From a virus, in the IMG/VR virus record IMGVR_UViG_3300025132_000080, positions 1 to 44,229 of that record: 44,229 nt of DNA; one strand, written 5' to 3'. The position numbers were made by a program, and so were the translations under genes. The notes below the pieces were generated by a model. That model was not told the origin of the DNA and did no database searches. It saw nothing but the letters and a program-made list of their open reading frames with translations. Shown piece by piece: positions 16,169-44,229 of this stretch. The stretch's first letter is position 1. Every line of letters begins with the position of its first letter.

Positions 16169-18391
16169 ATGGCACGTAAAAGCAAAGCAGAAACAAATAG
16201 AGAGTTGTTCAATAAAGCTAATAATTATTATAGAAAAAAATGGTTTAGCGATTCTCAAAAAGGAATGGATTTCTATTTAAATGACCAATTATCAGCTGAA
16301 GAAAAAGAAGACCTAAGAGAAGGTGGTATGCCAGACTTTATTATTAATCGTATAACACCAGCGATTGATATTATGAAATTTTTTATTACTGCTAACAATC
16401 CTAGATGGCAGGCAATTGGTGTAGAAGGTAGCGACGCTGATATAGCACATATTCATAGTATGATTGCAGAACATTCATGGCATTTATCTAGTGGTAAAAG
16501 TTTATTTTCAGAAGTAATACAAGACTCACTTGTTAAAGGTTTAGGGTTTTTTAAGGTAGAAATAGACCCAGATGCTGATAATGGTATGGGTGAAGTAGTT
16601 TATAAATCAATAGACCCTTATGATGTATATGTAGACCCTATGAGTAGAGACTTTTTATTTAGAGATGCAAACTATCTTATAGTACAAAAAAACATTTCTA
16701 AAACATCATTAATACAAATGTTCCCTGATATGAAACGAAAAATCGTCCGTGCATCAGGTATGACACAAACAAAACAATATTCTAATAGAGATGTACACGA
16801 ATCAGATAGTATTCAACCAGGTGATTTAGAGCATGAAGCTTATACATTAGAGGGAGAAAGAGATGATATACTTGATTTTTATGAAGTATATACTAAAGAA
16901 AAAATACCTCATGTAAATGTTTGGTTAAGAAAACCTCCTACAGAACAAGAACTAGCTAAAATTAAAGAAGCTACAGAAAAAGATATTTTAGATATGCAAG
17001 AAGAAATGGAAGTAGTTCTGAAAGAAAAAGAACAAGAATTGCAAATGTTGGTAGAAAAAGGAGAAATGCTAGAAGAACGTGCTGAAATTGAATCTCAAAA
17101 ATTATTTGAACAAATGCAATCAAGAATAGAAGAGCAACGAGCATTGATGGAAGCACAATTAATTAGGTCTCAAACTAGAACAAAACAAATTGTTATGTCA
17201 AAAGTTCAATTTGAAACTTTAACTAAAGACCCATCTTTTAGAGAGCAAGTAGTAGAAAATGTACCATTTTTTAAAACACAAATTAAAGTAACTGCTTCTG
17301 CTGGTGATATGTTTTTGTATGAACAAATATTACCTATAGAAGATTATCCAATTATTCCAATACCTTATCAACATACTAATACACCTTATGCTGTTAGTGC
17401 AGTAATACCTATGATAGGTAAACAAAGAGAAATAAATAAATCACATCAGATAATGTTACACAATGCGAACTTAGCATCTAATCTTAGATGGTTATATACT
17501 GAAGGAAGTATTGATGAAGAAGAATGGGAAAAATATTCAAGTAGTCCTGGAGCTATGTTGAAATATAGACAAGGATTTCAACCTCCTAATCCAATTCAAC
17601 CACTACCTATTAACAATGCATTTTATACAGTAACTCAACAAGGTAAACAAGATATAGAATATATTAGTGGTATATCATCAAGTATGCAAGGTATTGGTAG
17701 ACCTAGTTCTGAAACATATCGTGGTTTATTAGCAATGGATGAATATGGTACAAGAAGAATTAGACAATTTGTAAATAATGTAGTAGAACCAGCACTTGAA
17801 CATTTAGGTAAAGTATATATGCAATTTGCACAATTTACTTATACAACACAAAAAGTGCTTAGAGTTGTACAACCAGAACAAGGACAAACACAAGGTGAAG
17901 TACAACAAGTTTCTATTAACATTCCTATTTACAACGACTTTGGTAAAGTAGTAGAAAGATTTAATGATTATGCTTCAGCTAAATTTGATGTTAGAATTAT
18001 TGCTGGTTCAACACAACCACTTAATAGATGGGCATTACAAGAAGAATATTTCAAATGGTTCCAAGCTGGATTAATTGACGATGTAGCAATGTTAGAACAA
18101 ACTGATATACGTAATAAAAAACAATTATTACAACGTAAAGGTATGTATGCACAAATGCAACAACAACTAACAAACGCAGAAAATGCTATGAAAAGTCAAA
18201 GAGGTACAATTGAAACACTAGAAAGACAATTAGTACAAGCTGGTATCAAAGATAAATTAAATGAAAGCTCTAAAGTAATGGATAAAGAGTTAAATAGAAG
18301 TGTTGCAGCTCAACGACTAATTAGAGGTCGTATGGCAGACAAAGAAAAGATTCAACAAGAAAATGTTGATAATGAAAAAAACGTACAGTAA
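16169..18391 (+). CDS. Portal protein (P22-like)
   Basis: A 740-aa portal, the dodecameric ring through which DNA enters and leaves the head. Typical blocks include FIINRITPAIDIMKFFITAN (residues ~57-76) and the stretch SIDPYDVYVDPMSRDF. Residues ~262-337 form a long Glu/Lys/Met-rich coiled-coil insertion (DILDMQEEMEVVLKEKEQEL). The C-terminal ~120 residues are Gln-rich and helical, compatible with a barrel. The length matches P22-type portals. It follows terL and the endolysin and precedes scaffold and capsid genes. Confidence 0.88.
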   Translation: MARKSKAETNRELFNKANNYYRKKWFSDSQKGMDFYLNDQLSAEEKEDLREGGMPDFIINRITPAIDIMKFFITANNPRWQAIGVEGSDADIAHIHSMIAEHSWHLSSGKSLFSEVIQDSLVKGLGFFKVEIDPDADNGMGEVVYKSIDPYDVYVDPMSRDFLFRDANYLIVQKNISKTSLIQMFPDMKRKIVRASGMTQTKQYSNRDVHESDSIQPGDLEHEAYTLEGERDDILDFYEVYTKEKIPHVNVWLRKPPTEQELAKIKEATEKDILDMQEEMEVVLKEKEQELQMLVEKGEMLEERAEIESQKLFEQMQSRIEEQRALMEAQLIRSQTRTKQIVMSKVQFETLTKDPSFREQVVENVPFFKTQIKVTASAGDMFLYEQILPIEDYPIIPIPYQHTNTPYAVSAVIPMIGKQREINKSHQIMLHNANLASNLRWLYTEGSIDEEEWEKYSSSPGAMLKYRQGFQPPNPIQPLPINNAFYTVTQQGKQDIEYISGISSSMQGIGRPSSETYRGLLAMDEYGTRRIRQFVNNVVEPALEHLGKVYMQFAQFTYTTQKVLRVVQPEQGQTQGEVQQVSINIPIYNDFGKVVERFNDYASAKFDVRIIAGSTQPLNRWALQEEYFKWFQAGLIDDVAMLEQTDIRNKKQLLQRKGMYAQMQQQLTNAENAMKSQRGTIETLERQLVQAGIKDKLNESSKVMDKELNRSVAAQRLIRGRMADKEKIQQENVDNEKNVQ

Positions 18392-19311: not shown

Positions 19312-20886
19312 ATGGCAGATACTTCATACCCTAGTGCTAGTCCATTAGCATTAGCAACAAGTGACGGCTTATTCGAGGGTTTTGCGGCATCACAAGGTTC
19401 TTCACTAAACACAGGAGATTTACGTAGAAGATACGACTTTTCTGAAAGATTCGGAGAATTGGCAATTGACCAAACTCCATTCTTTAGATTAGTTTCTTCA
19501 TTAGCAAAGAAACCAACTGATGACCCCCAGTTTAAGTTTACCGAAAAGAGACATTCTTTTCACAAAAGATACGCATATGTAGTAGGATTCTATAATGGTT
19601 CAGCAGACAAATTTGACGATGCAACTTTAAAAGAATCAGACGATTCAGCTCTATCAGCAGGTGGAGAAGTGAAACTATATATGGCAACAGACTATTTTAG
19701 TGCTGGTAATATTCAAAATATTCAAGGTCAAGCTAACGGAGCAATCAAAGTTGGTGACGCTGGTACAGCACCTGAATGGATTATGAAAAATCAAATCATC
19801 AAAGTTCCTATGAGTGGAACAGCAGGCGGTGGAGCAGTTAGTGATTATGCGTTAATTCGTGTAACAGCAGTAGGAGCTCAAGCGGCTAAAAACTTATCAG
19901 GTGGTGGTGGCGCAGCAAGTGCAGAAGTTAAATTAGTTACAGGTAAAATTTTAAGATTACCTGATGTAGTTGAATTAGCTTCATTTTCTTCAAATGCTCC
20001 AGATTGTGTAGTACATGACGAAGATATTGCTGAATCTCTAGAAGCAAAACGTTCTTATGTCGTAGGTAATTCTTACGGAGAGGGTTCTTCTTTAACTGGA
20101 GAAAGCTACAAAGATAATCCATATTCAACAGGTTTTGGACAAACACAAATCTTTAGAACTGAGTTTGGTATGACCAATACAGCTAGAGCTACAGCTCTTA
20201 AGTATGAACCAAATGAATGGGCTAGAACCTGGAGAGAAAAACTAATTGAACACAAGTGGGAAATTGAACACGCTGGTTTATTTAGTACTCAAGCTTCAGT
20301 AGATAGTGTAGCTCATACACAAGGTGCTATTGATTATGTCCTTAACTATGGTAACCTTTTTGACTTAACACTTGCAACTAAGACAATTGATGACTTCTTG
20401 CAAGATATGTCTCGTTATCAAGACCCAAGATACAACCAAGACCAAGCTACAGTTTACATGTGTAGTACTGCAGTTTACACTTGGTTCCACAAAATTGGTG
20501 GGTTCTTTAAGAACAATATTGGAATTGGTCAAACTAATGCTGGTGCTTCAAATGCTGGAAATCAAGCATTATTTGGCGCAGACCTAGCCATTACAGGTAG
20601 AAAGAAAGTAATGGGACTAGATGTAACTGAAGTCAGTACTGTTTATGGTAGCATGAATCTTGCAAGATGTGTTGCTTTAGATAGTACCGATGTTAAGATT
20701 CTAGCTTTAAACATGAACAACGTAGCTTACAGACCATTAGTTGGTAATGGAGTTAATAGAGATACTGCGGTATACGTAGGAGTTCAAAATCTTGAAAACA
20801 CAGGTGTTGACAAGAGAGTAGACATCATATTAACAGAAGCTGGTTTTGAATTTATGATGCCAGAATCACACGCTATTTGGAAATAA
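19312..20886 (+). CDS. Major capsid protein, putative
   Basis: A 524-aa protein with the most generous ribosome binding site in the late region (AGGAGGG, 6 nt). Its position after scaffold and the pattern of the N-terminus (RYDFSERFGELAIDQTPFFRL) match HK97-fold capsid proteins of large podoviruses. It has an N-terminal arm, a central Gly-rich loop (GGGGAASAEV, residues ~197-206) and a C-terminal ...YVGVQNLENTGVDKRVDIIL segment. A hairpin region follows the stop. Assignment is from context and general pattern, without a diagnostic motif. Confidence 0.82.
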   Translation: MADTSYPSASPLALATSDGLFEGFAASQGSSLNTGDLRRRYDFSERFGELAIDQTPFFRLVSSLAKKPTDDPQFKFTEKRHSFHKRYAYVVGFYNGSADKFDDATLKESDDSALSAGGEVKLYMATDYFSAGNIQNIQGQANGAIKVGDAGTAPEWIMKNQIIKVPMSGTAGGGAVSDYALIRVTAVGAQAAKNLSGGGGAASAEVKLVTGKILRLPDVVELASFSSNAPDCVVHDEDIAESLEAKRSYVVGNSYGEGSSLTGESYKDNPYSTGFGQTQIFRTEFGMTNTARATALKYEPNEWARTWREKLIEHKWEIEHAGLFSTQASVDSVAHTQGAIDYVLNYGNLFDLTLATKTIDDFLQDMSRYQDPRYNQDQATVYMCSTAVYTWFHKIGGFFKNNIGIGQTNAGASNAGNQALFGADLAITGRKKVMGLDVTEVSTVYGSMNLARCVALDSTDVKILALNMNNVAYRPLVGNGVNRDTAVYVGVQNLENTGVDKRVDIILTEAGFEFMMPESHAIWK

Positions 20887-28794: not shown

Positions 28795-29178
28795 ATGAAC
28801 AACAAATTTATATCATACTTGGTATTAACGCTTTGCTTGTCACTATCTATGTTGCGCTCACAATCAGTCAACTTAGATAACTTCCAAAAAATACAAGCAC
28901 TTAATGTGCAAAAATGTGCAGTAATTCAAGTAAATGCATCTTGGAATTTTAAAAATAGAGTAAAGATAGAAAAACTTGCAGACTTGTGTTATGTAGGTGA
29001 AATAGATTTAAATAATAAAGCTATAGGTGCAGTAATACAAAAAGAATGGAATATAAAGGTTGTTCCTACTATTATTGTTTTAAAAGAAGGAAAAGAAATT
29101 GAAAGATATGAACCTGGTATTAGTATGAGGTTTGATGAGAAAGAGGTATTTGATAAGATTAAAAAGGAAATTCAATAG
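28795..29178 (+). CDS. Secreted thioredoxin-fold protein lacking the CxxC motif
   Basis: A 127-aa protein. Residues ~1-22 are a signal peptide (FISYLVLTLCLSLSML). The rest follows a thioredoxin fold: the strand VIQVNASW leads to W50-NFKN where CGPC would stand, and IKVVPTIIVLKEGKEIERY contains the cis-proline P91. With the redox cysteines replaced it is unlikely to be an oxidoreductase. C41 and C65 lie elsewhere. It would be exported to the periplasm. Possible roles are envelope interaction, superinfection exclusion or lysis timing, all speculative. Confidence 0.7.
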   Translation: MNNKFISYLVLTLCLSLSMLRSQSVNLDNFQKIQALNVQKCAVIQVNASWNFKNRVKIEKLADLCYVGEIDLNNKAIGAVIQKEWNIKVVPTIIVLKEGKEIERYEPGISMRFDEKEVFDKIKKEIQ

Positions 29179-32466: not shown

Positions 32467-33705
32467 ATGTCTGAAGGAATAAAATCAAGTTTAGAAAGAC
32501 TAACCCTTAGAAAAGGTGAATACAAAGGGAAGGCTTATAATATGGCAGGTCAACAAGGTTTATTAAAACTTGGTATTGCTAATCTAAACATGAGAGAACA
32601 AGCTAGACAAAACTTTTTAGGATTTACTGGTGCATTTATTAATTATCTAGATAAATTAAATAACTACACTCAAGACAACAAAATTATAGAAGATGGTATA
32701 GCTCAAGCTGAAGTAAATCTTGGTCTTAAAGTAAACTATCAAAGAGTAGGTTTTGATGACGTTTTTAAAGGTGATGCAAAAATAAAAGATTTAGGTAAAG
32801 AAACTTTTTTATTTGGTAATAAAGAATTTTCAAGAGCACAATTAAAAGCATTAGGTAGAACTGTACAAGAAAATGAAATGGCTATAATGGCTGGTGAAGA
32901 TGTTGACCCAGTTGATTTAAGTGGTTCTTCTGGATTTACATTTGCACAAGGAGAATCAGAAGTTATAGCTAATAGTTCACCAGACTCTTTAAGACTTGGT
33001 ATAGCACTAAATGAACAAGTAAATGAAGAAACAGCAAAATATATTTACGAACAACAAGGCGGTATTAAACAATGGTCTACAGCTGCTAAAGTAGTAGAAA
33101 GTTTGTTAAATAAAAACCCTGATTTAGCATTCTTTGGAGAAAATAATCAAAGAGTAAATGTGAAAGAAAGATTTACAACATTGCGTGATACTGTAAATAA
33201 TGATTTGAATAGTGATGTTGTTAAAAGAAAAGCAAATCAAGAGTTGCAAAAACTTTATAGTGAATTAAGTCAAGTATATAGTTGGGATGACATAAAAGGT
33301 GAAATAGCACAAGCTGAATCTGGTGATAATCCTTACGCTATAAATGTTAATGAAAAAGGTAGAGGTTTTGATATAGGTAAATATCAAATCAATAGTAGAT
33401 ATATAGTTGGTGGAGAAGGAAGTTATCAATTGAACGCAGATGGAACACCTTCACAAATGTTTGCAGATATAAAACAAATACTAGATAAAGGTTTAGTTGG
33501 TGTTGAAGTAGAACAAAAAAGTTCTTATACAGGAAAAAAACCTGGATTTGATATGGGTGATGTATTTGGTAAAGATTCTATATTTAACAAACAAGATGAA
33601 ATAGATTATGGATTTGAAGATAAAAATATTTATGAAACATTATACGACAATAATCTAATAGATGAAAATTGGAATATGTATGATTATAACTTGGAGGACA
33701 AATAA
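32467..33705 (+). CDS. Internal virion protein with lysozyme-like domain, 412 aa
   Basis: Residues ~278-315 fit a soluble lytic transglycosylase-like core: the catalytic-type glutamate in AQAESGDNPYAIN (E284) followed by FDIGKYQIN. The first ~270 residues are helical and Gln/Asn-rich, typical of ejected proteins. Such proteins enter the envelope with the DNA and locally open peptidoglycan. It is the first gene behind the internal promoter and is followed by two coiled-coil internal proteins and the giant protein, mirroring the gp14-gp15-gp16 logic of T7. Confidence 0.7.
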   Translation: MSEGIKSSLERLTLRKGEYKGKAYNMAGQQGLLKLGIANLNMREQARQNFLGFTGAFINYLDKLNNYTQDNKIIEDGIAQAEVNLGLKVNYQRVGFDDVFKGDAKIKDLGKETFLFGNKEFSRAQLKALGRTVQENEMAIMAGEDVDPVDLSGSSGFTFAQGESEVIANSSPDSLRLGIALNEQVNEETAKYIYEQQGGIKQWSTAAKVVESLLNKNPDLAFFGENNQRVNVKERFTTLRDTVNNDLNSDVVKRKANQELQKLYSELSQVYSWDDIKGEIAQAESGDNPYAINVNEKGRGFDIGKYQINSRYIVGGEGSYQLNADGTPSQMFADIKQILDKGLVGVEVEQKSSYTGKKPGFDMGDVFGKDSIFNKQDEIDYGFEDKNIYETLYDNNLIDENWNMYDYNLEDK

Positions 33706-34217
33706 TGTCACCATATGAAATAGCAATGCTTGGTACACAAGCTGTAAGTTTATTAAGTGGTGCTAATAATATAGCAGCACAAAATAGAATGACTGTTGGT
33801 ATGAATAATATATCATTAGGTTATTTACAAGACCAACTAGAACAATTACCTGAGATGACTCAGTTAGCTAAAGAAGCATCTAGAGATAAAATGCAAGATA
33901 GCATGGATATACTTGGTATGGGTGCTGGTATACAATGGGATAAAGTAAACATGAGTATGGATGCTATGATGGATAGCAATAAATTTGCTAACTATGGTCA
34001 ATTAGATTCTAGATTAGATTTAATTACAAAACAACAACAAGATAAATTTCAATCACAAGTAGAGCAACTACGTAGAAGAAGCAACTTAGAAATAGCACAA
34101 GCTGAATCATTTCAAATAGCAGAAGAATCAAGATTAGAAAACCAACGTAAATTATTAAAAAAACAAAATCAATATGCTAGAAGAAGAGATACAATGTTTG
34201 AAGCTCTATTCAGATAG
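33705..34217 (+). CDS. Internal virion protein, 170 aa
   Basis: A 170-aa helical protein. The N-terminus (SPYEIAMLGTQAVSLLSGAN) is mildly hydrophobic and resembles gp14-like ejection proteins that insert in the outer membrane. It is followed by Gln-, Met- and Asn-rich helices and an Arg-rich tail. TAATG couples it to the lysozyme-like gene. The role is inferred from composition and order. Confidence 0.65.
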   Translation: MSPYEIAMLGTQAVSLLSGANNIAAQNRMTVGMNNISLGYLQDQLEQLPEMTQLAKEASRDKMQDSMDILGMGAGIQWDKVNMSMDAMMDSNKFANYGQLDSRLDLITKQQQDKFQSQVEQLRRRSNLEIAQAESFQIAEESRLENQRKLLKKQNQYARRRDTMFEALFR

Positions 34218-34225
34218 GAGATATT

Positions 34226-35374
34226 ATGGCAGTACAATATGCAAATATAATTAACTCTTTAAGTATGATGCTTGAGTCAAGAGCAAGAAGAGAACAAGCT
34301 GAAGAACAAGCTGCGTTACAAGGGCTAAGAATAGCACAACAAGATAAGCAGTTTCAACAAGAGTATGCTTTGAAACAACAACAGTTTCAACAGCAACAAC
34401 AAGAATTTTTTATACAGCAAGGTGAATTACTTCGTGGACAAGCAGAAAAATATGCCATAGAAGAAGGTTTAGGATTAGCACAATCTGAGTTTGCTCCTTT
34501 AGTAGAAGGTTATTTAGAAAAAAAAGATGATAAGTTTGAATTACGTGGTTTAAAAAGAGATGGTACAAGTGATTTTTCTAAAGAGTTAGTTAAAATTTAT
34601 GGAATGTCAAATGCAGATTCTATAGAACTTGTAAATCAATTATCATCATTATATGTTAATGAATCTCCTACTATGCAAGTAGTTGAAAGAACAGTTGATA
34701 ATTGGGAAAAACTTACTAAAACTACTTTATCAAATGCACAAAATTTTAGATTGTACAGACAAAGATATAGAGAGTTAGGAGAAGAAATCAACGACATACA
34801 AACTGGAGACTATAAGTTTGATACTAAATATTCTATATTACCAGAAGGTCAAGATTTTATGCCTAGTGAATCTAAAGATGCTGTAGTAGGAAGTATGGCT
34901 CCTAGTATTAAAAACGTTACAGAACGTGAACAAGCAATGTCTAGAAATTTAGGAAATAGAAAAGATACTTTAGAAGAATTATTAAATAAAACATTTAGAG
35001 ATAATGATTATATATCTGGTAGTTGGAATGATTATACTAATACTTATACAAATAAAGAAAACATAGACAATATTTATGATTTAAGAAAATTATATAAACA
35101 AGATAAAAAAATTGTAGATGATGTTATAAAAGAAAATGAAGAAAGTATGAGAATTTTAAAAGGTAGACTTGAAACTTTACCATTAGGAGCAGAGCTTTCA
35201 GAAGGAACTTCTATTGATGAAATTGAAGGTACATTAAAACTATTTGAAAATGCACAAGAATATGCTGAGCTTGAAAAATCTAGAATAATGAACGCAATTA
35301 AAAATATAAACACTAGAGATGGTCAAATATCTCAAGAAAGAGTTTCAGATTACAATAGTTATCTTGAATACTAA
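34226..35374 (+). CDS. Internal virion protein, coiled-coil, 382 aa
   Basis: A 382-aa protein with a Gln-rich coiled coil at residues ~40-75 (QQEYALKQQQFQQQQQEFFI), then mixed charged helices. The design fits gp15-like proteins that line the ejection tube. SD GGAG lies 7 nt upstream. It lies between the small internal protein and the giant gene. Confidence 0.65.
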   Translation: MAVQYANIINSLSMMLESRARREQAEEQAALQGLRIAQQDKQFQQEYALKQQQFQQQQQEFFIQQGELLRGQAEKYAIEEGLGLAQSEFAPLVEGYLEKKDDKFELRGLKRDGTSDFSKELVKIYGMSNADSIELVNQLSSLYVNESPTMQVVERTVDNWEKLTKTTLSNAQNFRLYRQRYRELGEEINDIQTGDYKFDTKYSILPEGQDFMPSESKDAVVGSMAPSIKNVTEREQAMSRNLGNRKDTLEELLNKTFRDNDYISGSWNDYTNTYTNKENIDNIYDLRKLYKQDKKIVDDVIKENEESMRILKGRLETLPLGAELSEGTSIDEIEGTLKLFENAQEYAELEKSRIMNAIKNINTRDGQISQERVSDYNSYLEY

Positions 35375-35377
35375 AAT

Positions 35378-38300
35378 ATGCCAAAACTAATTGACAATAA
35401 CAATCAAACCCTAGAACAGGGTCTACAAAGAAGACTAGACGAAAATTTGTCTGGTATAACCACATCTACATTACCATCATTATCTCAACAAATGAGAGCA
35501 ATTAATCCTCAAATAGTAGAATCAGATAAAAATATGTTTGAACGTATTGGTACTAGTGTATTTGAAATAGGTAGTGAAGCCGCTGAAAGTTTTATAGACA
35601 CAGCTTTGTTTGGTATACCAAGTGCAGCTGGTCTCTATGAACCTGGAGAAGATGTAGATACTGTTTCTGAAAAAGTAGGTCAAGCTGTTGGTACAGCCGC
35701 AGGATTCTTAGTACCATTTGGAGCAGTAAGAGGTGGATTAAATATGGTAGCAAGAGGTTTAGCTGGTAAAAGTGCAGCTCCTAAGTTAGCAAAAACAATG
35801 GATGACCAAGCTAAAGAAGTATTTAAAAAATATAGTGATGATGTATTATCATTTGATAATGAACTTTCAGCATTTTATCAATCACCAATCAAAGGATTAC
35901 AAGATATAGTATTTGCTGGTACTACTAAAAAAATAGCTAACTTTGATAGAACATTTAAATCAATTAGAGATAAAGATGATTTTGTACAAAAAATTACAGA
36001 TAATGCTGGTAAATATTTAACTGAACAAGCAGATGAACTAGGGTTTAAACTAGCTAATAAAAGTAAATTATTAGATGAAGTCGGTGAAATAATATCTACA
36101 AACCTTGCAAAAGCTAACAACCAACCAATTAATACTATGCAAACATATTTAGCTTCTAAGTTTGGTAGTGGTTTAAAAGGTTCATTTATGAGTCACGTAG
36201 TAGAGGAGGCAATATTATTTGCTGGTGCTGAAAATTTAATGTTAAGTGTAGATGCATTAGCAGGAGATGCAACACTTGAAGATTTTAAAGGAACTTCTAA
36301 ACACGCATTAGTATTAGGTTCTGTTTTAGGTGGTGTAAGATTTATACCAGGTGGAGTAGCAGGTGGTATAGGAGGTATTCAAAAAGGTCCTGAACGTATT
36401 GCTCGTATTATAGCTGGTAGTAGAAACTATACAAAGAATTTAAATCCATCTATAGAATCAGCACAAAAAGGAATAGCAGCACAATATGATTACTTTGCTG
36501 GTTTAACTGGTTCAAATATTGTATCAGGCACAAACGTTAGAAAATTATTAAATGATAAAGCATTAGATATATTAGATAATGTTCCTAAAACAAATGCAGC
36601 TAGAAGAGCTAAGCTAGGAACACAAGATGTATCAAGAGAAAATTTAGAAAGAATTTTATTAAGTCCTCAATCAACACCTGAGCAAAAGAAAGCAGCAGCT
36701 GAAATAATGCAAGATGGTTTGCAGTTTTTATCTTCTCACGTTAATAGAGAGTGGAGAGAAGAAATGTTAAAAACATGGGGAGCTGACATTATAGGAAGTA
36801 GTCCTCGTATGTTAGTTGGTGGTATTGCAATGTCTGGTGGACCAACAATGTTATTGAGTGAAGATGTACCATTAGAAGATAAACTAATTGGATTTTTTAT
36901 GGGTGCGTTTATTACTAAAGGTGGTAAAAAATTAGAGTGGAGAAGTGGAGAAAATTACAATCAAGTAAATCAGTTAGGTAAAGACCCTAAGACAATGGAT
37001 AAAAGACTTATAGAGCAAGAACATGCACTAAAAGCTTTAGGAACTAGTTTTGATGGTAATGCCTCTTATAGAATATTATTACAAAAAGCATTTCAAGCTA
37101 ACTCAGATAGTGGTCGTTTTTTAAACAATCAAGTAAAACCAAAGACTGATGAGTTTGTAATTAAACTTGATAACCCAGAAGCATTTCAAGTTCGTTCACA
37201 AACAGCAATTACATCTACTAATGCGGTAGCAAGTAAAAGTGGATATAAACCAGTATACGAAGCATATATAGCATTAGGCGAATCAAAAACATTATTAACT
37301 GAAGGTAATAGATATAAAGACTGGAGCGAATTAACTAAAAAAGAAAAAGATAATTTTATAAAACGTGTAGAGCAAGAAGGTATTAGTACTCCTGAACAAA
37401 TGATTGAATACTCTAGTGAAATTAAAACAGAATCTTTTGCTGATATAGAAAGAAAACTAGCAGATAGTTATGAACGTTTACAAGCATCAATAATAGGAAG
37501 AAAAGAAACTCCTGAAATACAGGATATATCAATAGAACAAATATCTGGTAGAATAGATGGTGAACTAGCAACGGCTATAAAAGAATACAATGCACTAGGT
37601 AGCATATTAAAAGGCTCAGGTAATTATGAAGTTAATCCAAGAGCTTTTGCAATTTCAAGTGGTAAAAACACTCAACAATCATTTAAAGAAACTTATAACA
37701 ATACTTTAAAAGATTTTCGTGAGTACATGAAAAATCAACACGAAATACAAAGCGAATTAGATTTTTCTGATAGTGTATTAAATTCAGCGTTAGATTTAAA
37801 TAGAATAAATATAAATGTTATAAGAGCGGCATCTAATAAAAAAGGTGAAGGTATTTTAGACGTATTTAAAAATGATGCTGAATTCTCAAATGTATTTAGA
37901 ACATCTGATAAAAATCCTACAATAGCTGCTCGAATTGTAGTGAAAGGTAATAAAACATTAGAAAAGAAAATGAATGCTATCTTAGAAGTTGTTAGTAAGT
38001 TTGATGATAGTTATGATAAAATGTTTTCTAGTGAAAGCACATCTATAAAAAGATTAGACCCTAGTCAAGCAAGAAATATATTACAAAAATTAAGAGATAA
38101 AAATATTATGGCTTTTGCTTCACCAGGCGACTATAGTATTGCTATGCCTATAAAAACTATGGGTAGATTAATTACAAGCAAGTATGTTAGAAACTTGTTA
38201 ATCAATGGAACAGATAATACTGGTAAATTATTAACACAAACAGATAGAAACATTATACAATTAGGTATGGACCATGGTATTATTGGTTCTAGTTTACAAT

Positions 38301-41300
38301 ATAGACCTACCACAGAAGCAATGTTTAAAGTAGTAGATTCTGGTATTTTAAAACAAATAAGTAAAGATAATAACTTTTCAGCTATTGAAACATTTGTTGG
38401 AGCAAGTAACGCAGAAACAGCAGTAATCAAACAAACGTTAAGAGAAGTAAAAGAAGTGGTTGGTGATAATCCTGGTTCTACTGCAAGATTTAATCAAATA
38501 TTTGAAAACACAGTTAAGATGATTGATGATACATTTTCAAAGTATGTAAAAGGAGAAGATGGTAAAGGTGTTTTAAATAGAAGTTTAGAATTATCAAGTG
38601 GTGGCGATTTTATACAAGTTAATCAATTAGCACAACGTATTAATATGATTAAAAATAATACTCTTACTGAAGATGTAAGACTATTTTTAAATGATATATA
38701 TCAAGTAGATAGAGTAGAGTTTGTTGGTACTAAGAAAGCAATGAAATCATTAATGAATATGATGACATTTAACAAAAATCCTATAAAACTATATGAATCT
38801 GCAATAAGATATAATTTATATGATACACAAACAAGGTCTTGGAAAACAGATAAACTAAGTGAAACTGAAGTAAATGCTCGTTTAAAAGAAATGCGAGATA
38901 ATAAAATAATAGATTTTGTTGATACACAAAAAGCAGCTAGTGAAATAAAAGAACAAGGTGAATTTTTTCCAAAAGATTTTACAGAACAAAACCAAGTAAG
39001 ACTAGGTGAAATACTAAATACTTATTCACTACCTATAGATAGTAAATTTAAAGCAAATGATTTATTAGCAGAACAACCTTTACAAAAAATACAAGACGTA
39101 TTTTTCACACCTGAATATCGTAATAACTTTAACAAATTTGCTGATGATTTCGTAAATGATGTTATAAAACAAAATCCTAAACTTAGTGTATCACAAAAAG
39201 ATGCAGTAAGAATGTCAATGAAATCATTTTATACTCAATTAAAAAATAATGTTGAAGTAGAAATATTAGAGTTTAATGCAAACGCTTCAGATAATACTAT
39301 GACAAGAATTGATGTAAAAAATAGAACACCTATAGATGATGCATTATTAAAAGCTATGGGCGATGCACAACCATTTTTAAGACAAGTAAGTAGTAATACT
39401 ATTAATACTGAAGGATTACCTGGACCTTTAATTGGTAATGCTATGCAAACATTTAGACAAAAAGCATTTGAAAGCGATTACATATTTAACAATTTTGAAA
39501 AAGTAGATTTAACAAAAGCTGGTAAAGATATTCTAAATAATAAACCACCTATGAATGCTGAACCTGGTATTATATATAGATTTGCTGATTCTGATAATAT
39601 TTATTTTATTAAAAAAAATCAAGATGTATTAAACAATATAGCAAATAGATATGCTGAAGTATTGCAAAAGTTTGACCCTAATAATAAAGATGCAAGACTA
39701 AAAGAATTAGAAATAGTATTAAAAGATGATAAGTACGAATACACTATAGGAAGTGCTTGGCAAAGAGAAACAACAAAGTTAACTCAAATACTAGATGATA
39801 TATTATTATCTGATACTCTAGGTGGTGAAAATATATTTGGTACAGGATTTAGAAGACAAGAAGGTATAGGATTACTAAAAGGATTATTTAAACGTGATAG
39901 TTTAATAAATAATAATAATGCATTACGTTTTGATAAACAGCTTGTACAAACTAACATTACTGAAGCAAGAAAAATAACATTTGAAAATGCTGAATATAAA
40001 GCAGATGTTATCAAAAAATTACAAGATTTTAGAGATAATAAGTTAAACCAAGTTACAGTTGCTGATGAATTACCAGGTACTATTGCTGACTTAGTTAGTG
40101 TAAATAGAAGAATTAATGATTCATTTGATACTGAAATAGGATTAGCTATAGACCCAAAAGTAAAACAACAATTACAACAACAAAAAGCTCAATTCAATAT
40201 ACAAGTACAGGAACTAGGTATAGCAGATGCAAGTACTGTAAATGGAGTTACTATTGTAAATGATAAAACATTTAAGATGTTAGCATTTTTATCTGGTGAA
40301 ACTACTTCTAGTAATATTGGTGGTATTAAACCTATTATGTATAATTTAGGGAATGGACCACAATTATTTATAAATAAAACAGCATTTTTAAAAAACAATA
40401 ATCCTAAAGTAGAACAAATATTTAAAAACAATCCTAATTTAGATTTTGTAACGTTTACAAGTGCTAGTAAAAAAGTAACTAAAGATAGAATGACACCAGT
40501 AATTGCTATGAGTAAATTAATATCTGGTAAAAATATAGAAGAAATAGTACCAATTGGTTCTGAAAATATTGCAATCATATCTACTAAAAAAAATAAACAA
40601 TTTGCATCTTTAGGTGCTAACAATAGTGTTCATTTATTAAACAATGCTCAAAGAAATTCATACTATGATTACTTTATTAGAGATATAAATGGTTTTGATA
40701 CAAAAAGAGAATTTCTTACATCTTTAAAACAACCTGCAAACTACGCTAAAATTATTGCGGAATTTCAAAGACTTTCTACAGATAGAGTAAATAATAAATT
40801 GAATAGTGATTTAGAAGTATTTGGTAATGATACACTAATGAAGTTACTAGCAGATTCTGGTGCTATACCTACAATAAAAACAAGAATGTGGGAAGATATG
40901 TTAAAGCAACAATATCTTGATAAGATGTTTAGATTAAAAGTAGATGGTAGTACTGGTGTTTTAGCTCCTGGTACATTTTTATCTGATACAAAATTACAAA
41001 ATACTATTATATTAGAAAACGGACAACACTATAAATTTGGTGAAATAGAATTACCACACTCAGCACAATTTAAACCTATAGATAAAAACAATATTACTTT
41101 GGTGAAAAAGTTAAAAGGTGCAGCTGATGAGGTAGTTAATGGTGCATCTAAAGAAGGTCAAGTAATTATTAAAGATGTAGAAACATTAGGAGAAGCTGTA
41201 AAGAATGCTGAAAAAGTAGGTTATCAAGTGTTATCATTTTTTGAAAGACAACCACATACTAAACCTTCAAGTGTTATGCCTGTAGGTATAAAGAAATTTA

Positions 41301-43708
41301 GAAGTAAAAATGAAGGTGACCAAATTGTATTGAATGATGCAGATTTAAAAAGAGCAGCAGAAGGAGACTTTGACATAGATTCTGGTAGTGCTATCTGGAA
41401 AATGCCTCATGATGTAGCACAGGGTTTTATACAATCTAGAGGACAAGTTTTAGATTCTGTTCCTTTAGGTGTAGGTAGTAATCCTTCATTTAAAAATTTA
41501 AATTTTAAAGATTTTGAATCTAGAGAAAGATATGTAGAACAAAAATATAATGCTCAATATGTAATGGGTTCAGCTATTAACGCTAATAGAATAGTTCAAA
41601 AAATATTAAGTGGTAGAAGTTCTAGAGACGGAGAGTTTTTTGATGGTAGAACTGAAAACAAAATTATTATAGCTAAAACAGGACAACAAAGATTTATAGG
41701 TGTTAGAGGAGATGTAAATAAAACTTATCAACGCATAGCTGATTTAGTACAATCTATTTTAGATAAAGATAATGGATATGATGCTAATATATTTAAAGAT
41801 ATTAATTCTTTATATGATGATATATTCTTTGGAATAGATGGCAATGGTGTTCGTACAAATCAAGGGCTATTTAAACTATATAGATTTAGAGAAAAAGATA
41901 AAGGAGAAGGTCCTAAATATGAAGAGATAGATGCAGACTTTAGCGCAGTAGAAAGAGCTTTATTAAAAGAAAATATTATACAACCATATAGACAACTATT
42001 AAAATTGAATAATAAATTATATGATAGTGGACAACAAAGAAAAGTATCACTGAGAGATATTGCTACATATTCTAGTAACTTTGATACTCAATTATTTTTT
42101 GCTAGTAAAAATGCTGGTAGAAAATTAAGAGACCCAAATATTGATAGCGTATTTGGTGGTTATACAAAATCATTAATGTTATATGGAGAAAATACTAATA
42201 TAAGAAGTAGTATAGTTTTTGATAGACTTATAGCTGATATGTCACAAATTAAAAATTTATTATTAGAACCTACTAAAGCAAACTCAGAAGGTGTACGTAG
42301 TGAAACTATTAGTAGTGCAGTAGAATTTATGGAAGCAAGTGCTGATGGAGTAAATGCTCTTGTTAAAAACTTTAAAACTGATGTACAAAAATATGATGCA
42401 GCTAAAAAAATAGATGTAGAAATCAAAAGAAAAGAATCTTACATGAAAAAAATAAATAGATTTGAAAGTCCTGAATACTACGAAACATTACAAAATAGAT
42501 TAAACAAATTAAAAGAAGCTAGAGAAGGTTTAAAAAATGCTATTAATGTATCTAACTTAGATAAAAATATGTTTGCACTAGTAGAACAACGTTATGTAAC
42601 TGAAGCATTAGCAAAAGAATATCGTAAAAATGAAGGTAAACTAGAACCAGAACAACAAAAACAAATCGTTGAAGATGCTAAGAAAAAATTCAAAGAAGAA
42701 AAACTAGACATAGACTTTGTTGATAATGCAGACCTTGTAAATAATATTGCATTAAGTTATGCATTTAGTTCTAGGGGTAATCAAACACTTGCTGGTCTAG
42801 GTATAAAAAACACAGACCTATCAAAAGACTTTGAACTAGAAATAAAAAATGCAAAAGATTTTTATAATAAATCATGGAAAGATTATTTTGATGTAAACAA
42901 TAAAGAAGTATTTCATCCAGACCAAATAAAACAAAACATGTATGAAAAAATTGATACAATAATAAATAGATACAACGATGTACCACCTGAGTTTATCTTA
43001 ACAAAGATTATGACACCTAGAGTAGATTTTACTAAAATTATAAAATATCAAGATAAGTATTTTCCAAAACCAATAGATACTAATACAGAATCATTTATCA
43101 ATTTAGTAACTGGTTATGCATTACAAAGTCCAAGATTTAGTAAACAATTTACAGGAGATTTTGTTAGAGATTATGCAGGTGCATATAACCAAGTATATTT
43201 AAAACTACATGGAGTTAATAGTAAATTTAGTTCAGATGGAATACCATTAGAAATTACTACAGGTGAAGTATATCAATTCCCTCATCTATTACCAACTGGA
43301 CACACAAGAGATGCATTTAGTTTATTTCAAACATTTAATCCTCAAGAAACATTAACTGGTAGATTATCAAGTAGTTCTAGATTAGATAGTTATCAAACAT
43401 TCTTAGATGTATTTGGTACAGCTACTGTAAAAGATGTACTTAGTGGTGGTAATTTAGCTCCTTCATATAGCATTACAAAAAATAGAATTGAAGCTATAGA
43501 TGGTATGCATACTTTCCAAAACTCTTTAAAGAATGAAGCATTGTTTAATATCTTTAGTAGAAAGAGTGAAGATAGTTTAAAACAAATTATAAAGGGAACT
43601 GAAACAGATGTAGACCCATACATAACAAAAGACTATTATAATGGCGGTACAAGAGATGTAAAAGAATTTATTACGGATTTAGGTAAAACAACTAAGGAGA
43701 TTTGTTAA
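35378..43708 (+). CDS. Giant virion protein, candidate ejected RNA polymerase, 2776 aa
   Basis: Early hydrophobic stretches at ~101-130, ~309-330 and ~478-516 could insert in membranes, as in ejection proteins. Far downstream lies a set of polymerase-type elements: VDGSTGVLAPG (~1855-1866), GEIELP (~1888-1893), R1957-x-P1959, then G-DFDID with D1997, D1999, D2001. In beta-prime subunits RAPT...NADFDGD shows the same order with 35 residues between R and the first D, against 40 here. The crAss-like phage virion polymerase also uses a DFDID motif. The remainder is unassigned. It is the fourth gene of the ejection cassette, so it is probably packaged and injected. Confidence 0.65.
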   Translation: MPKLIDNNNQTLEQGLQRRLDENLSGITTSTLPSLSQQMRAINPQIVESDKNMFERIGTSVFEIGSEAAESFIDTALFGIPSAAGLYEPGEDVDTVSEKVGQAVGTAAGFLVPFGAVRGGLNMVARGLAGKSAAPKLAKTMDDQAKEVFKKYSDDVLSFDNELSAFYQSPIKGLQDIVFAGTTKKIANFDRTFKSIRDKDDFVQKITDNAGKYLTEQADELGFKLANKSKLLDEVGEIISTNLAKANNQPINTMQTYLASKFGSGLKGSFMSHVVEEAILFAGAENLMLSVDALAGDATLEDFKGTSKHALVLGSVLGGVRFIPGGVAGGIGGIQKGPERIARIIAGSRNYTKNLNPSIESAQKGIAAQYDYFAGLTGSNIVSGTNVRKLLNDKALDILDNVPKTNAARRAKLGTQDVSRENLERILLSPQSTPEQKKAAAEIMQDGLQFLSSHVNREWREEMLKTWGADIIGSSPRMLVGGIAMSGGPTMLLSEDVPLEDKLIGFFMGAFITKGGKKLEWRSGENYNQVNQLGKDPKTMDKRLIEQEHALKALGTSFDGNASYRILLQKAFQANSDSGRFLNNQVKPKTDEFVIKLDNPEAFQVRSQTAITSTNAVASKSGYKPVYEAYIALGESKTLLTEGNRYKDWSELTKKEKDNFIKRVEQEGISTPEQMIEYSSEIKTESFADIERKLADSYERLQASIIGRKETPEIQDISIEQISGRIDGELATAIKEYNALGSILKGSGNYEVNPRAFAISSGKNTQQSFKETYNNTLKDFREYMKNQHEIQSELDFSDSVLNSALDLNRININVIRAASNKKGEGILDVFKNDAEFSNVFRTSDKNPTIAARIVVKGNKTLEKKMNAILEVVSKFDDSYDKMFSSESTSIKRLDPSQARNILQKLRDKNIMAFASPGDYSIAMPIKTMGRLITSKYVRNLLINGTDNTGKLLTQTDRNIIQLGMDHGIIGSSLQYRPTTEAMFKVVDSGILKQISKDNNFSAIETFVGASNAETAVIKQTLREVKEVVGDNPGSTARFNQIFENTVKMIDDTFSKYVKGEDGKGVLNRSLELSSGGDFIQVNQLAQRINMIKNNTLTEDVRLFLNDIYQVDRVEFVGTKKAMKSLMNMMTFNKNPIKLYESAIRYNLYDTQTRSWKTDKLSETEVNARLKEMRDNKIIDFVDTQKAASEIKEQGEFFPKDFTEQNQVRLGEILNTYSLPIDSKFKANDLLAEQPLQKIQDVFFTPEYRNNFNKFADDFVNDVIKQNPKLSVSQKDAVRMSMKSFYTQLKNNVEVEILEFNANASDNTMTRIDVKNRTPIDDALLKAMGDAQPFLRQVSSNTINTEGLPGPLIGNAMQTFRQKAFESDYIFNNFEKVDLTKAGKDILNNKPPMNAEPGIIYRFADSDNIYFIKKNQDVLNNIANRYAEVLQKFDPNNKDARLKELEIVLKDDKYEYTIGSAWQRETTKLTQILDDILLSDTLGGENIFGTGFRRQEGIGLLKGLFKRDSLINNNNALRFDKQLVQTNITEARKITFENAEYKADVIKKLQDFRDNKLNQVTVADELPGTIADLVSVNRRINDSFDTEIGLAIDPKVKQQLQQQKAQFNIQVQELGIADASTVNGVTIVNDKTFKMLAFLSGETTSSNIGGIKPIMYNLGNGPQLFINKTAFLKNNNPKVEQIFKNNPNLDFVTFTSASKKVTKDRMTPVIAMSKLISGKNIEEIVPIGSENIAIISTKKNKQFASLGANNSVHLLNNAQRNSYYDYFIRDINGFDTKREFLTSLKQPANYAKIIAEFQRLSTDRVNNKLNSDLEVFGNDTLMKLLADSGAIPTIKTRMWEDMLKQQYLDKMFRLKVDGSTGVLAPGTFLSDTKLQNTIILENGQHYKFGEIELPHSAQFKPIDKNNITLVKKLKGAADEVVNGASKEGQVIIKDVETLGEAVKNAEKVGYQVLSFFERQPHTKPSSVMPVGIKKFRSKNEGDQIVLNDADLKRAAEGDFDIDSGSAIWKMPHDVAQGFIQSRGQVLDSVPLGVGSNPSFKNLNFKDFESRERYVEQKYNAQYVMGSAINANRIVQKILSGRSSRDGEFFDGRTENKIIIAKTGQQRFIGVRGDVNKTYQRIADLVQSILDKDNGYDANIFKDINSLYDDIFFGIDGNGVRTNQGLFKLYRFREKDKGEGPKYEEIDADFSAVERALLKENIIQPYRQLLKLNNKLYDSGQQRKVSLRDIATYSSNFDTQLFFASKNAGRKLRDPNIDSVFGGYTKSLMLYGENTNIRSSIVFDRLIADMSQIKNLLLEPTKANSEGVRSETISSAVEFMEASADGVNALVKNFKTDVQKYDAAKKIDVEIKRKESYMKKINRFESPEYYETLQNRLNKLKEAREGLKNAINVSNLDKNMFALVEQRYVTEALAKEYRKNEGKLEPEQQKQIVEDAKKKFKEEKLDIDFVDNADLVNNIALSYAFSSRGNQTLAGLGIKNTDLSKDFELEIKNAKDFYNKSWKDYFDVNNKEVFHPDQIKQNMYEKIDTIINRYNDVPPEFILTKIMTPRVDFTKIIKYQDKYFPKPIDTNTESFINLVTGYALQSPRFSKQFTGDFVRDYAGAYNQVYLKLHGVNSKFSSDGIPLEITTGEVYQFPHLLPTGHTRDAFSLFQTFNPQETLTGRLSSSSRLDSYQTFLDVFGTATVKDVLSGGNLAPSYSITKNRIEAIDGMHTFQNSLKNEALFNIFSRKSEDSLKQIIKGTETDVDPYITKDYYNGGTRDVKEFITDLGKTTKEIC

Positions 43709-44229
43709 TGGCAAGATGTACACCAGTAAGTAAAGACTTTGATACAAGATTAGAATCATTAGAAAAAATTGGTAAAAAATTTGCTGACAATAGCATAGTA
43801 AAACAATTTGATAAAGGTACACAAACTTCTATGTTTAAAAAGTTACTATATCAAGTTACAGATATGGAATATAGATTACCTAAAGTAGAAGAATTAAAAC
43901 TATTAAACAGGTTAGTAGATAGAGGGTTGAATCGTGTAGGTAAAGATAGAGGTAAATTTGCTGAACTATTATATTTACCACAAGAAATATATGCAGATAT
44001 ACCCTTCTTGAAAAAATGGTACAAAGATGTTCAAAGGTCAAGTTTAGTTCTTAAAGGTAATACACAAGAATTTAATAATGGTTTAAATCAAATTATTAAT
44101 CTACTAAAACCAGCAGCTTCTAATCAAGGATACAAAGAATCTTTCCTTGAAAAAGTAGGATTAGATTCTAAAAGATTACAACGTGAGCTTACAAATAAAT
44201 ACAAAAAATTTAATAAGTTACAACAAGAA
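43708..44229 (+). CDS. Hypothetical protein, 3' end outside window
   Basis: Starts at ATG 43708 in TAATG overlap with the giant gene, SD AAGGAG 7 nt upstream. It stays open for all 174 visible codons (MARCTPVSKDFDTRLESLEK...). It is basic, helical and Lys/Leu-rich. It is probably a further ejection or internal protein, given coupling to the giant gene. No domain is recognised in the visible part. Confidence 0.7.
   Translation, partial: MARCTPVSKDFDTRLESLEKIGKKFADNSIVKQFDKGTQTSMFKKLLYQVTDMEYRLPKVEELKLLNRLVDRGLNRVGKDRGKFAELLYLPQEIYADIPFLKKWYKDVQRSSLVLKGNTQEFNNGLNQIINLLKPAASNQGYKESFLEKVGLDSKRLQRELTNKYKKFNKLQQE

Follow-up and report, generated by a model that had tools for sequence, protein, structure and literature searches.

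The closest described counterpart of the protein analyzed here is the virion RNA polymerase of the crAss-like phage phi14:2 (PDB 6VR4; KC821624 gp077, designated gp66 in the literature). Both proteins are organized as a single chain with the two polymerase barrels, two lysine residues in the beta-type barrel DPBB-B, an R-x-P motif located 39-40 residues in front of a DFDID motif, and a terminal cysteine next to a neighbouring gene whose product starts with cysteine; 6VR4 was also the best match in the PDB. The protein analyzed here differs from the phi14:2 polymerase in that it lacks the lysine after DFDID, carries an N-terminal region in the same gene, reveals no detectable relation outside the core and belongs to a phage with other capsid and portal families. 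The virion RNA polymerase of the short-tailed phage N4 is likewise a giant injected polymerase, but is devoid of cysteine. Its fold is T7-like. A two-barrel core is also present in the RNA-interference polymerases QDE-1 and RDR2, which came next after 6VR4 in the fold search but are eukaryotic cellular enzymes without an ejection region. Thermus phage P23-45 encodes a two-barrel polymerase within a giant injected protein, gp96, in which it is fused to the tail tape measure (PMC10770324); in this long-tailed phage, however, the polymerase is N-terminal, the motif reads DFDGD and cysteine is missing.

The window, i.e. the whole stretch of 44,229 nucleotides that was analyzed (IMG/VR record IMGVR_UViG_3300025132_000080), encodes a protein of 2776 amino acids, called the giant below. 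An earlier note on this DNA had interpreted the giant as an RNA polymerase injected with the genome, and its reading as an RNA polymerase is strongly supported by conservation, a profile match and the predicted fold. Sequence comparison and structure prediction likewise provide strong support for a fusion of an N-terminal region with a two-barrel RNA polymerase core. The polymerase part is very probably a single-chain, two-barrel enzyme, which would be packaged in the virion together with a large N-terminal region putatively involved in ejection.

The giant ORF and its catalytic residues

The ORF of the giant, which has an ATG start, proved to be real, and the cassette context had also been described correctly: an SLT_3-like lysozyme gene is followed by the genes of a 170-aa and a 382-aa protein and then by the giant (Table 1). 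Additionally, a gene that was absent from the earlier note starts immediately after the giant and runs off the window; its product comprises 885-948 amino acids in relatives with a full-length copy.

Table 1. Features of the giant and of its gene neighbourhood in the window
Feature	Position	Strand	Basis
P22-like portal protein	16169..18391	+	PF16510, E 2e-50; phrog_156
SU10-type major capsid protein	19312..20886	+	PF17236, E 2e-16
Lysozyme-like (SLT_3) internal protein, without Cys	32467..33705	+	Pfam E 1e-4, below cut-off
170-aa internal protein, without Cys	33705..34217	+	
382-aa Gln-rich internal protein, without Cys	34226..35374	+	
Giant cargo protein, 2776 aa	35378..43708	+	ORF; relatives at 20-86% identity
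Predicted DPBB-B (beta-type barrel), residues about 1645-1745, with Lys1667 (NKTA) and Lys1698 (SASKK)	40310..40612	+	Invariant Lys; boundaries taken from predicted strands
Predicted DPBB-A (beta-prime-type barrel), residues about 1850-2010	40925..41407	+	hhalign; AlphaFold2 pLDDT mostly 70-96; Foldseek to 6VR4
R1957-Q-P, conserved Arg-x-Pro of DPBB-A	41246..41254	+	R and P invariant in the family and 57 crAss-type proteins
D1997-F-D1999-I-D2001, catalytic metal motif, followed by Ser2002 and not Lys	41366..41380	+	Three Asp invariant
Cys2776, last residue and only Cys of the giant	43703..43705	+	
Next cargo gene, partial in the window, product starting MARC	43708..44229	+	

IMG/VR was scanned for the pattern EGDFDID and, twice, with profiles, which resulted in the detection of 16 related contigs, and all 16 relatives are giants in metagenomic virus contigs. 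Three of them are 86% identical to the giant of the window and the others 20-30%, over the full length. The sequence elements reported by the earlier note were recovered at the expected places, namely DFDID (residues 1997-2001) with a serine next to it, the R-Q-P motif (1957-1959) 40 residues upstream and GEIELP (1888-1893). The conservation of the three aspartates, on which the earlier note had made its reading dependent, was found in all 16 relatives, along with that of the arginine, down to 20-30% identity. An alignment of 12 family members has its invariant columns concentrated in E-R-x-P-H-x-K-x-S-S and K-R-A-A-E-G-D-F-D-I-D. The most distant members, which were found without the full DFDID pattern, keep the aspartates with changed intervening residues, DYDID in one giant (L173) and DHDLD in two others (L175 and L176). 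The motif is thus more than a chance occurrence, since invariant columns cluster there and relatives detected independently of the DFDID pattern retain D-x-D-x-D. The lysine that often follows the motif is missing, as the earlier note had remarked, and is replaced by serine or threonine in every relative.

Two-barrel RNA polymerases depend on a second barrel with a pair of lysines. Its motif in the giant, which the earlier note did not contain, consists of K1667 within NKTA and, 31 residues further on, K1698 within SASKK, with a distance of 330 residues from K1667 to the aspartate motif. Its counterpart in crAss-type polymerases reads K-Y-S ... S-G-x-K-V-G. When 15 family members and 57 crAss-type proteins were aligned jointly, the only fully invariant columns were K1667, K1698, G1857, R1957, P1959, D1997, D1999 and D2001; the crAss-type rows were picked by the lysine motif, so that their own invariance is partly built in, whereas that of the window's family is not. 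Localpair MAFFT misplaced K1667 in the crAss-type rows, so that this column is based on the default alignment together with the motif itself. Both barrels contain all expected catalytic residues, i.e. D-x-D-x-D with the upstream arginine in DPBB-A and the two conserved lysines in DPBB-B, and the giant that carries them belongs to the ejection cassette of a phage whose portal is P22-like and whose capsid is of the SU10 type.

Homology and predicted fold of the polymerase core

An hhalign comparison of residues 1820-2010 of the family with a crAss-type profile yielded P=7e-8, whereas controls with other regions of the giant and with reversed and shuffled columns resulted in P values of 0.06-0.82. 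The DPBB-B stretch alone was not significant (P=0.04); the hhalign path places SASKK opposite the SG.KVG of the crAss-type polymerases. Homology between the core of the giant and the crAss-type virion RNA polymerases was demonstrated by this sequence comparison. By its motifs, the giant represents a sister branch of the crAss-type clade and not a member, because its D-x-D-x-D precedes serine or threonine and the G-x-DFDID-Lys of the clade is not found. Neither the N-terminal region of about 1300 residues (P=0.39) nor the downstream protein (P=0.05) revealed a relation to the crAss counterparts, so that only the polymerase core is common to both.

The structure prediction suggested by the earlier note agreed with the profile comparison. 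An AlphaFold2 model of residues 1600-2270 from the 72-sequence joint alignment reached a pLDDT of 82 and a pTM of 0.81, and a Foldseek search of 350,542 PDB chains with this model ranked 6VR4 of phi14:2 first (E 2e-7), structural E-values below 0.001 being reached only with crAss-type sequences in the alignment. QDE-1 and RDR2, followed by Pol II and Pol III, ranked behind 6VR4, and all 50 PDB matches listed are RNA polymerase chains. The predicted fold agrees with that of two-barrel RNA polymerases, and none of the outcomes that would have refuted the earlier note by its own terms was obtained. The model also predicts a 33-residue helix after DPBB-A (residues about 2046-2078). The joint-alignment model depends on crAss sequences, whereas a second model, made for residues 1590-2700 from family sequences only, is independent of them. 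This family-only model had a pLDDT of 67, and its top PDB match was QDE-1 with a Foldseek probability of 0.63 versus 0.10 for the next match (E=0.2); in BFVD it matched five evident family members and then a crAss-like protein. An HMM search of the PDB with the family profile alone and a PDB search with a single sequence detected no polymerase. A PDB match to 6VR4 obtained with the joint-alignment profile was set aside as circular, since crAss-type sequences are contained in this profile.

The points against a polymerase include the missing lysine after DFDID, the PDB search with the family profile that gave no polymerase, the P value of the isolated DPBB-B stretch and the dependence of structural E-values below 0.001 on crAss-type sequences. 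That DFDID occurs by coincidence in a structural protein unrelated to polymerases would agree with the result that Pfam and PHROGs gave no polymerase match for the giant, but this explanation is hardly conceivable and was ruled out in practice by conservation, the profile match, the second barrel motif and the predicted fold. Both barrels also occur in the DNA polymerase PolD (PMC10770324), and another two-barrel enzyme of this kind might be considered; the matches listed from the PDB, with 6VR4 and QDE-1 leading, are nevertheless RNA polymerases throughout, which makes a PolD-like enzyme very improbable. We also regard it as improbable, though less so, that the two-barrel RNA polymerase of the core is made in the cell and acts after infection instead of being injected, or that the giant is a non-catalytic structural ejection protein. 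The N-terminal half without a link to crAss cargo would fit such a protein, but the catalytic residues, none of which would be needed for a purely structural role, are invariant at 20% identity, the giant lies behind a lysozyme and internal proteins, and its cysteine pattern recurs in phi14:2 proteins whose annotation places them in the virion. The preferred interpretation is that of a virion-packaged RNA polymerase: by analogy with phi14:2, we infer that the giant would exit the capsid together with the genome and then transcribe early phage genes.

The phage lineage

The earlier note had stated that the other genes of this phage do not resemble those of Crassvirales, and this view was corroborated by the capsid and portal families. 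The major capsid protein of the window belongs to PF17236 (SU10_MCP), whereas those of phi14:2 and crAss001 belong to PF23898, and the portal is assigned to phrog_156 and PF16510, whereas that of phi14:2 is assigned to phrog_6547. A P22-like portal was present in all nine family contigs tested. A search of the family contigs for a T7-type polymerase (PF00940), carried out without a positive control, gave no match. Searches by tblastn with the giant, with its distant relative L176 or with a second giant described below gave no match in 50,697 phage records, so that by this sequence search the lineage of the giant is absent from annotated phages at tblastn sensitivity; no relatives were found in the prokaryotic genome contigs searched either.

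The family contigs are fragmentary, and two or more of them look like two phages joined. These contigs, G001 (69.5 kb) and G006 (71.6 kb), each contain two structural modules from different phages and may be assembly chimeras, because the second giant occurs with 100% identity on another contig (L208). This second giant (G001, the contig of L162, 47972-57141; also L207-L210) comprises 3056 amino acids without cysteine and contains the motifs FKTG...ESATK and RNP...GGADKDAD; by these motifs it resembles a two-barrel polymerase and would represent a third lineage of this kind. Proteins encoded in the tail region of the window include a thioredoxin-fold-like protein (28795-29178) with a probable signal peptide and without a CxxC motif, of which similar proteins are present in both modules of G001, and a protein with a pretoxin HINT domain (PF07591; 27425-28213). 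With respect to annotation, RefSeq lists crAss-type giant polymerases (L214, L215, L216) under names like DNA helicase, nuclear pore complex protein-like and DprA-like.

Terminal cysteines of the cargo proteins

The single cysteine at the very end of the giant, which the earlier note did not mention, is directly followed by a gene whose product starts with MARC, and the relatives show a comparable arrangement of cysteines. All 16 giants whose end is complete, that of the window and those of 15 relatives, have a cysteine at most six residues from it, and the terminal cysteine is the only one in the giant of the window and in eleven other giants counted. The next protein has a single cysteine, at residue 3-9, in all 12 family cases. 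In phi14:2, the only cysteine of gp078 (1797 aa) is the last residue and that of gp076 (1421 aa) is residue 3, and the polymerase gp077 (2180 aa) contains two cysteines, at residues 3 and 2179; gp076-078 are annotated in GenBank as virion proteins on the basis of MS/MS. Among the IMG/VR crAss-type polymerases with a complete end, which form 55 clusters at 50% identity, 67 of 67 have a cysteine among their nine C-terminal residues, where 0.7 would be predicted by their cysteine content, and the next gene in these loci encodes a cysteine at residues 2-9 in 62 of 62 cases, compared with a background of 7% and 5% for terminal cysteines in other ORFs of crAss-type loci. Where the product of the preceding gene ends in cysteine, the polymerase also starts with cysteine (7/7), and where it does not, the polymerase start is free of it (3/3). 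The pattern was seen at positions 43703-43719 of the window and in the loci L041-L160, L201-L203 and L213-L220. Proteins of 169-396 amino acids with a cysteine near each end are encoded downstream of the polymerase in four loci (L046, L061, L066 and L116) and resemble spacers between chain members. Among injected giants without this system (L204, L205, L206), no cysteine is present in the N4 virion polymerase (0/3500 residues), in P23-45 gp96 (0/5002) and in T7 gp15 and gp16; in T7 gp14, a single cysteine occurs at residue 2.

The junctions between three successive cargo members, A, B and C, were compared in 11 named phages. The members are encoded by three separate genes in phi14:2 and crAss001 (A/B/C), A and B are fused in cr55_1, cr50_1, cr60_1, cr113_1, cr7_1 and Fpv1 (AB/C), and B and C are fused in Carjivirus, jaberico and crAss002 (A/BC), the start in crAss002 being taken at the internal MSCTPS, which is residue 33 of the annotated protein. 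The giant of the window and its next gene are of the AB/C kind. A terminal cysteine was present at 26 of 26 partner-facing ends versus 0 of 22 outer ends (Fisher P=4e-14, a value that overstates independence, as the 11 phages are related), and fused junctions lack exactly the cysteine pair of that junction. Gene A of crAss001 lies on the opposite strand and nevertheless fits the pattern, which argues for a link made between the proteins and not by gene position. A constraint at the DNA level, e.g. a stop/start overlap or a ribosome binding site, was rejected as the origin of the cysteines, as they are found at positions differing by 1-9 residues and this gene A conforms to the pattern as well. 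A search of the literature, which did not cover the phi14:2 polymerase paper and may thus have missed a prior notice, found nothing on terminal cysteines in phage cargo.

Cargo proteins pass through a narrow tail, probably partly unfolded, and the structural atlas of a crassvirus attributes the extrusion order probably to packing and to interactions of the cargo proteins, with no mention of cysteine (PMC10172136). We lean towards the interpretation that the ejected proteins of crAss-like phages and of the window's lineage form one head-to-tail chain, A-B-C with the polymerase in the middle, that is joined by cysteine-cysteine disulfides. During tail passage a stray thiol would risk wrong cross-links, which would explain the scarcity of cysteine in the cargo, and a thiol pair at neighbouring ends would form a disulfide once the virion leaves the reducing cell. 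The disulfides would join the cargo into one thread and fix its exit order through the tail, and the chain would come apart by reduction in the cytoplasm of the next host. Gene fusion is proposed to be the evolutionary equivalent of the disulfide. Phages assemble in a reducing cytoplasm, however, and the disulfides would have to form late.

The evidence on the terminal cysteines comes from sequence data, and the pattern and its fusion logic might also be explained by joint metal binding, by a modification or by docking peptides of neighbouring cargo proteins that contain the cysteine. Such functions are possible, if rather doubtful: one cysteine per protein end, as is usually found, is too few for a typical metal site, the thiol is retained amid variable neighbouring residues, suggesting thiol chemistry rather than a peptide motif, and the replacement of the cysteine pair by gene fusion implies that the pair serves as a covalent link.

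With the giant very probably being a polymerase, virion-packaged RNA polymerases of the cellular type would extend to a lineage with other capsid and portal families, and this trait would therefore not be confined to crAss-like phages. For crassviruses, the question has been raised what orders the exit of giant cargo proteins through the tail, and the cysteine pattern provides a simple and testable answer to it. Should the links be disulfides, these phages would deliver their polymerase into the cell by means of a protein chain that is released by a change of redox conditions.
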